From a virus, in the IMG/VR virus record IMGVR_UViG_3300042887_002870, positions 1 to 41,056 of that record: DNA of 41,056 nucleotides, one strand, 5' to 3'. This document shows positions 26,042 through 27,393 of this stretch, piece by piece (position 1 is the first letter of the stretch; the number at the start of each line of letters is the position of its first letter). The notes under the pieces are model-generated. The model had not been told where the DNA came from and made no database searches. It saw nothing but the letters and a program-made list of their open reading frames with translations. The translations under genes were made by a program, and so were the position numbers.

Positions 26042-26716
26042 ATGAAAAAGTACATAGTTTTGGCAATCTTGTTGGTAGCAGTAAAAGTAAATGCTTCGGT
26101 CATTCCATCAGTAATGTCAACGGGAGTAAATGATTTTAGGAATGTACTAGATAATAATAGTATTGATTTTCACTATTTAGTAGATACTCCAAGTGGATTT
26201 ACATATAAAGTAGAACCGCAAGTTTATGGAAACGTAAGAGAGCAGTGGATGAATCCATCTTCACTAAGTCCAAGTGCGGCTTGGATTTCTTTTAGTACAG
26301 ACCCAAAATCTGTAGATAGTAGAAATAATTATACATACGCAACAACATTTAACTTAGACAGGTTTGATGTTAATTCTGTTAGTATATCTGGTAACTGGGC
26401 TTCAAGCTCATCTAGTAGTATTTATGTAAATGGCAATTATCTAATGTCTAATTATAGTACATCAGCTATACAAACTTACAATACATTGTCAAGTTTTACG
26501 GTTAACAACGCAACGGGCTTTTTACTTCCGGGCCTTAACACATTAACTTTTGTAGTGTCAAACGGAAGCTCAACTTTAGCTACATTGCCGCCAAACGGCT
26601 TGCTTGTATCAATGTCTGGATCTGCCCAAGCAGTTCCTGAGCCAAGCTCTTTTGTTCTTTCGTCAGTAGCAATCGCTCTATCCTCAGTATTTGCAATTAG
26701 GAGAAGAAAGAAGTGA
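26042..26716 (+). CDS. PEP-CTERM exported protein 1
   Basis: The 224-residue product has a signal peptide (MKKYIVLAILLVAVKVNA), a beta-sandwich-like body with AWISFSTDP and NTLTFVVSNGS, and the C-terminal sorting signal VPEPSSF, a hydrophobic helix and RRRKK. PEP-CTERM tails are recognised by exosortase in the host envelope, which cleaves and probably transfers the protein to a surface polymer. I see no exosortase in this window, so the host enzyme would be used. It is coupled by GTGA overlap to a paralogue. Confidence 0.9.
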   Translation: MKKYIVLAILLVAVKVNASVIPSVMSTGVNDFRNVLDNNSIDFHYLVDTPSGFTYKVEPQVYGNVREQWMNPSSLSPSAAWISFSTDPKSVDSRNNYTYATTFNLDRFDVNSVSISGNWASSSSSSIYVNGNYLMSNYSTSAIQTYNTLSSFTVNNATGFLLPGLNTLTFVVSNGSSTLATLPPNGLLVSMSGSAQAVPEPSSFVLSSVAIALSSVFAIRRRKK

Positions 26717-27393
26717 GAACAGTTATAGCTCTCATATTCACGCTTTTTACTTGTAATGCAGTGGGGCTAGAAAATATTGTTACTCTACATTCAACAGGAA
26801 TAGGAGACAACAACTCTCCTATTCTTTCTGGTCTCACAGATGTAAACTGGAAATTGCCAAACTTTAGCACAGACGCCTTTGTTGTTGATCCACAGACTAC
26901 AGTTATTGGCAACGGCCCCTACGAACCGGGAAAGTGGATCGACCCTTCTATACTTCCCATTCCTGCTAAGTGGATTTCTTTCGACAGTAATCCATTTAAC
27001 GTAAATCCATACTTAGGAACTTACTTATTTGAGAGTGAATTCGATCTCTCAGATTATAAAATTGAAACAGCAAATATTTCTGTAAATTGGGCGGCAACAG
27101 GAAGAACTTATGTTATCCTAAATGGTTATATGGCAACTTATAACTTAGAAATGCAAGACTTGCAACTTTATAATGTTGACAATAGAATGTTAGTTCAAGG
27201 AGTTAATAAGATACAGTTCTTTGTACATAACAACTATAATATTAGCTCCTCTTGGGGAATTGGACTATTAGCTTCATTTAAAGGAGTGGCTCAACCAGTC
27301 CCAGAACCATCAACTATAATCTGTGCGATAATAAGCTCTCCAATTTTACTTTTAATTATTAAAAAGGGCAACCACAAAAATGTCTATGAATAA
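26713..27393 (+). CDS. PEP-CTERM exported protein 2
   Basis: GTG 26713 overlaps the upstream TGA. The 226-residue paralogue of the previous gene has a short signal peptide (MRTVIALIFTLFTCNAVG), WIDPSILPIPAKWISFDSN, VNWAATGRTYVILNG and a C-terminal VPEPST, hydrophobic run and KKGN tail. The basic end is weaker than in copy 1 and continues for eight residues after the Lys pair. It overlaps the next gene by 14 bp. Confidence 0.87.
   Translation: MRTVIALIFTLFTCNAVGLENIVTLHSTGIGDNNSPILSGLTDVNWKLPNFSTDAFVVDPQTTVIGNGPYEPGKWIDPSILPIPAKWISFDSNPFNVNPYLGTYLFESEFDLSDYKIETANISVNWAATGRTYVILNGYMATYNLEMQDLQLYNVDNRMLVQGVNKIQFFVHNNYNISSSWGIGLLASFKGVAQPVPEPSTIICAIISSPILLLIIKKGNHKNVYE

Follow-up and report, generated by a model that had tools for sequence, protein, structure and literature searches.

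A tandem pair of PEP-CTERM-type genes in a phage genome, with predicted jelly-roll bodies and a possible route through the host exosortase

The PEP-CTERM/exosortase (EpsH) system was described by Haft et al. 2006 (PMC1569441) and is represented by the models PF07589/TIGR02595 and PF09721. The route proposed for PEP-CTERM proteins is export by Sec, retention via a C-terminal helix and processing by exosortase; their bodies in bacteria are rich in Asn, Ser and Thr, and most of their genes form operons of one gene, preceded by large upstream regions (PMC1569441). Exopolysaccharide (EPS) is kept attached to cells by PEP-CTERM proteins and exosortase in Zoogloea, Aquincola and Nostoc (PMC9012009, PMC9850573, PMC12188702). 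Phages are not mentioned in Haft et al. 2006 (PMC1569441). In the open-access literature, as represented mostly by titles and abstracts, we found no paper on phage-encoded PEP-CTERM proteins.

A second point of comparison is phage morons that modify the cell surface or exclude superinfecting phages. The known surface-modifying morons are lipoproteins, inner-membrane proteins or O-antigen enzymes, and we know of no phage moron that uses exosortase. The gene pair described here resembles them in being accessory, in encoding proteins with predicted secretion signals and in its potential to alter the cell surface.

The window (the whole 41,056-base stretch analysed here, from IMG/VR record IMGVR_UViG_3300042887_002870) carries the pair at 26042-27393, and the sequence-only reading, which had pointed out two side-by-side PEP-CTERM-type genes there, is confirmed. 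Gene 1 (26042-26716, +) is an ORF of 224 aa with an ATG start and encodes PEP-CTERM protein 1 (P0001), while gene 2 (26713-27393, +) has a GTG start and encodes the 226-aa protein 2 (P0002). The two proteins are related, with 29% identity over 217 aa (E 1e-21). As in the class of Haft et al. 2006, each has an apparent signal peptide, a PEP motif, a predicted hydrophobic helix and a basic end, without an internal membrane helix and with an N/S/T-rich body (Asn 11% in both; Ser+Thr 27% in protein 1 and 14% in protein 2). Unlike the bacterial system, the pair is phage-encoded, consists of two apparently coupled genes and has no exosortase nearby.

The genes overlap by four nucleotides, GTGA, such that the TGA stop of gene 1 lies on the GTG start of gene 2, and the two starts are preceded by AGGA and AGGAG. 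Because of this overlap and these upstream motifs, translation of the two is probably coupled. The next ORF of the same run (27380-27568, +) overlaps gene 2 by 14 nt. A promoter-like TTGATT-16-TATAAT lies upstream of the pair (25944-25971, +; 10/12 matches), which is weak evidence given that the window contains 19 such sites vs 13 expected from shuffles.

Both N-termini, judged by eye, have the clear n/h/c regions of a signal peptide, in agreement with the earlier reading. In protein 1 the putative Sec signal peptide is MKKYIVLAILLVAVKVNA (26042-26095, +; KK-hydrophobic-VNA/S), and in protein 2 it is MRTVIALIFTLFTCNA (26713-26760, +; R-hydrophobic-CNA/V). Both C-termini have VPEPS, then a hydrophobic stretch, then basic residues. 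The degenerate VPEP-coding core GTNCCNGARCC has just two occurrences in the window, one per tail, with 0.12 expected by chance.

PEP-CTERM tails had been proposed for both proteins, and this essentially holds for protein 1, and for protein 2 by homology and by eye. The protein 1 tail (VPEPSSFVLSSVAIALSSVFAIRRRKK, 26633-26713, +) scores 23.4 bits against PF07589 in a genome scan (cut-off 20.7) and 16.5 against TIGR02595 (cut-off 16); with hmmscan, protein 1 scores 20.4 bits against PF07589, slightly below the cut-off. The protein 2 tail (VPEPSTIICAIISSPILLLIIKKGNHKNVYE, 27298-27390, +) went undetected by every PEP-CTERM model in Pfam and NCBIfam. By homology and by eye it is nevertheless a PEP-CTERM-like tail, since it shares VPEPS with protein 1 at the equivalent place, has a C-terminus predicted to be helical and carries KK...K. 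Its hydrophobic stretch contains a proline, and this tail may be decaying or may be sorted by something else.

Direct searches brought up no relatives of either protein. Protein 1 had no match among 50,697 phage records and no relatives among plasmids; protein 2 had chance-level matches only (E 5 or worse) in the same phage records. Viral contigs searched by peptide patterns, and genome contigs searched with a two-row alignment, also gave no relatives. A bacterial family was instead reached with a bait, a hand-written consensus of a PEP-CTERM body family, which drew 20 loci from public genomes, 16 with the body and four mainly through the tail. The body-bearing loci belong to Verrucomicrobiota, Planctomycetota, Acidobacteriota, a Cyanothece, Alphaproteobacteria and Omnitrophota.

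The profile test itself used retrieved real sequences only: ten bacterial PEP-CTERM proteins, each trimmed of its PEP tail and of its first 25 residues. This tail-free profile matched the phage bodies at E 3.7e-21 (protein 1) and E 5.6e-14 (protein 2; Z=100,000 for both), vs E 3.1 for the best of 2,000 shuffles, and the likeness to the bacterial family therefore extends past the tail. On these sequence comparisons, both bodies belong to the bacterial TFDLTGLD-type PEP-CTERM body family, which has the pattern STGVD...WI.P...YTYRTTFDLTGLDPSTA.I.G.WA.DN...LNG...F..G.NTL.F.V.N. Homology covers the full length of the body, the tail position is also homologous between the pair and single-domain family members, and the near-invariant positions of the family are kept in both phage bodies. 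However, identity between phage and bacterial proteins is only 19-34%, and verrucomicrobial members often repeat the domain inside large proteins, unlike the phage pair.

In a body-only tree, P0001 and P0002 are sisters (support 98/95), as expected after a tandem duplication long ago, with caution for the long branch of P0002; the pair is probably an old tandem duplicate. The nearest rows of the tree are Planctomycetota, but their support is weak (66/88), and a host assignment from it was rejected.

Of the 20 genomes from which the family-search loci came, 17 encode exosortase (PF09721), vs one of 14 control genomes. The window encodes none; the enzyme would need to come from the host, where a matching exosortase is assumed. 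The earlier suggestion of exosortase-bearing hosts is supported by the genomes of the body relatives, and the pair points to a diderm among such hosts.

The beta-rich bodies read from the sequence also appear in AlphaFold (AF2) models of both proteins. With 41 homologues, protein 1 is modelled as a beta jelly roll plus a C-terminal helix at 203-223 (mean pLDDT 88); the jelly-roll body, which is also the part matched by the family profile, corresponds to 26096-26632 (+). Protein 2 has a similar predicted beta-rich body, likewise a jelly roll (mean pLDDT 85), and helices at 199-207 and 210-218. Fold searches were made with the protein 1 model. Its best solved matches are sugar-binding domains of GH2 enzymes (Z 9.5 over 128 aligned residues, 3.5 A), and Foldseek returned CBM35/CBM6 modules (E about 1e-4 to 7e-4; CBM35 E 9.6e-5), with whole-model TM-scores that are low, at most 0.39. 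Protein 1 is thus predicted to share the galactose-binding-like jelly roll of GH2 sugar-binding domains, CBM35 and CBM6. The phage pair differs from these modules in having no catalytic domain and in sequence, with identities of about 6-19%. The shared fold suggests, short of proof, that the jelly-roll body may bind carbohydrate.

We consider it moderately likely that the two are lectin-like proteins which are sorted by the host's Sec system and exosortase and act at the surface or in the slime of infected cells. The steps that we infer run from expression and export to cleavage, sugar binding and a benefit to the phage. The pair would have been acquired as accessory cargo and then probably duplicated in tandem. 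During infection, both proteins would be made from one translationally coupled message, and the host Sec system would carry them across the inner membrane, where the C-terminal helix would hold each with its PEP at the periplasmic face. Host exosortase would then cleave the tails, and the jelly-roll bodies would come to lie at the cell surface or within the exopolysaccharide. There, the carbohydrate-binding-type fold could bind glycan and so alter the infected cell's envelope. The leading candidate for a benefit is that glycan receptors are masked or EPS is altered, such that competing phages adsorb poorly. Taken alone, this superinfection role is plausible but in our estimate less likely than not, and the sequence itself does not favour surface decoration or superinfection blocking over EPS or biofilm roles.

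The same display could serve a different end. As EPS tethers or aggregation factors, the jelly rolls would strengthen or alter the link between EPS and cell (in a floc, a biofilm or colony buoyancy) and so aid the spread of the infected cell or the phage, rather than block rivals. PEP-CTERM proteins are known to retain EPS and to take part in forming flocs or biofilms (PMC9012009, PMC9850573, PMC12188702), and the contig also has a GDP-mannose dehydratase gene and three glycosyltransferase genes. Those glycosyltransferases could, however, serve glycosylation of phage DNA or virions instead, and aggregation would seem to hamper virion spread of a lytic phage. We regard this purpose as possible but rather doubtful.

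Alternatively, the proteins could be decoy substrates: made abundantly, they would occupy the host exosortase and leave host PEP-CTERM proteins unprocessed, such that EPS is shed and lysis or virion release becomes easier. Where PEP-CTERM expression or exosortase is lost, EPS stays soluble, as in Zoogloea prsK/prsR mutants (as quoted in PMC9012009) and a Nostoc crtB mutant (PMC12188702). The presence of two copies in one apparently coupled unit would suit a decoy, as would the absence of exosortase both from the window and from 36 other PEP-bearing virus records among the matches listed. However, a decoy needs no conserved, well-folded body, and both phage bodies retain the near-invariant positions of their family, so we think this function unlikely.

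The pair's genomic setting bears on whether it matters to the phage at all. On one side lies a conserved phage gene, phrog_1362 (21067-22266, +), and just downstream of the pair lies a second conserved gene (27806-28300, +; 34-36% identity to its counterparts). Both flanking genes are common to the viral contigs L010, L011 and L012. A GP88 family gene occurs twice in the window (8349-9083, + and 11906-12685, +), with 56-59% and 54-57% identity to the L010 and L011 copies. The contig also has 19 tRNA genes and a Ro60 gene, and a dense run of overlapping plus-strand ORFs passes through the pair. The view that it is phage DNA is therefore upheld: this is a genuine phage contig, from a large bacterial virus.

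L010 and L011 have no PEP-CTERM gene in the interval between the conserved flanking genes, and a PF07589 search of 14 related records gave no PEP-CTERM. Since L010 and L011 keep the flanking genes without the pair, it is, on gene content, accessory cargo within a phage genome. Its absence from related phages is also what one would expect if the phage had picked up these host genes recently and they did nothing for it. That explanation sits poorly with the state of the genes, though. Neither reading frame is broken, the codons are used as elsewhere in the contig, and mutual identity of about 30%, with 19-34% to bacterial relatives, indicates long divergence during which conserved positions were kept. 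We give recent passengers little credence.

Host chromosome, a chimera or a prophage flank is a highly improbable identity for the contig: no structural gene was recognised in the window, and a 'terminase' label at 3-1319 (-) was rejected, the region being a Hint/LAGLIDADG intein, but phage genes shared with viral contigs flank the pair on both sides, and the tRNA set and the ORF run through the pair also argue against it.

Phage-borne PEP-CTERM proteins, and pairs of them, had been called unexpected, and this view has to be qualified. We scanned IMG/VR for classical PEP-CTERM tails with a degenerate DNA pattern, which gave at least 120 stretches; at least 109 are canonical PEP-CTERM C-termini at ORF ends (109 of the 124 matches listed). 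Whole records were searched for 40 of the matches listed, and 38 passed the PF07589 cut-off. Two tails within about 0.6-1.7 kb were found, among the matches listed, in seven records (G982, G983, G985, G992, G993, G997 and G1000). Tandem or overlapping PEP-CTERM gene pairs were seen at L190, L187, L224, L175, L143, L161 and L194. Terminase_6N was found in just eight of the 38 PEP-bearing viral records listed, and as this is an insensitive test, some of the records may be host flanks.

These other viral proteins share the tail class of the window pair, and tandem pairs recur among them, but their bodies are different: the window's tail-free body profile matched none of the other viral PEP-CTERM proteins listed. 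Three further ones (L117, L190 and L171) had no match among deposited phage records. A parallel in layout is G982 (L194), a 228-kb record that is clearly phage by its terminase families and 15 tRNAs. At 48000-56000 it has two PEP-CTERM genes among tRNA genes and near a Ro60 gene, as in the window, and is otherwise almost unrelated in sequence to the window phage.

A broader reading is that PEP-CTERM proteins, often as tandem pairs, form a widespread and so far undescribed kind of cargo in viruses of exosortase-bearing bacteria, and that these lectin-like proteins are displayed in the slime of infected cells via host exosortase and interfere with competing phages. We offer this as a conjecture that is, on present evidence, less likely than not. 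If true, phages would reach the cell exterior and EPS by a third-party route, the host exosortase, which as far as we found is not described for phages in the open-access literature. Phages that infect exosortase-bearing bacteria (those forming biofilms, flocs and blooms) would also become recognisable by a sequence signature, and there would be a handle for host prediction, along with directly testable hypotheses on phage effects on EPS, flocs and blooms.

Several neighbouring genes deserve a brief description. The Ro60-like RNA-binding protein gene downstream of the pair (28843-30348, +) has its best deposited match in Myxococcus phage Mx1 (36%), and a search for viral relatives via this gene found none. 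A perfect promoter-like TTGACA-16-TATAAT stands before it at 28772-28799. Co-occurrence of PEP-CTERM and Ro60 genes was considered as a link and rejected, as two of the 36 PEP-bearing records listed are too few.

Sugar-related genes lie at 1938-3029 (-) and 32168-36357 (+): a GDP-mannose 4,6-dehydratase, a glycosyltransferase-methyltransferase fusion and two more phrog_18799 glycosyltransferases. The N-terminal part of the fusion has about 70% identity to Synechococcus phage proteins. The glycosyltransferases match Synechococcus phages at about 70% and 43% identity, and the cyanobacterial host that this hints at is a lead only.

The intein region at 3-1319 (-) consists of a Hint module and a LAGLIDADG homing endonuclease, and its host protein extends beyond the contig end. 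An ERCC4-type nuclease and a sigma-70 region 2 protein are encoded at 1291-1776 (-) and 3817-4350 (-). Finally, a CAP/SCP-domain protein at 40492-40944 (+) has a signal-peptide-like hydrophobic N-terminus and is possibly a further secreted phage protein.
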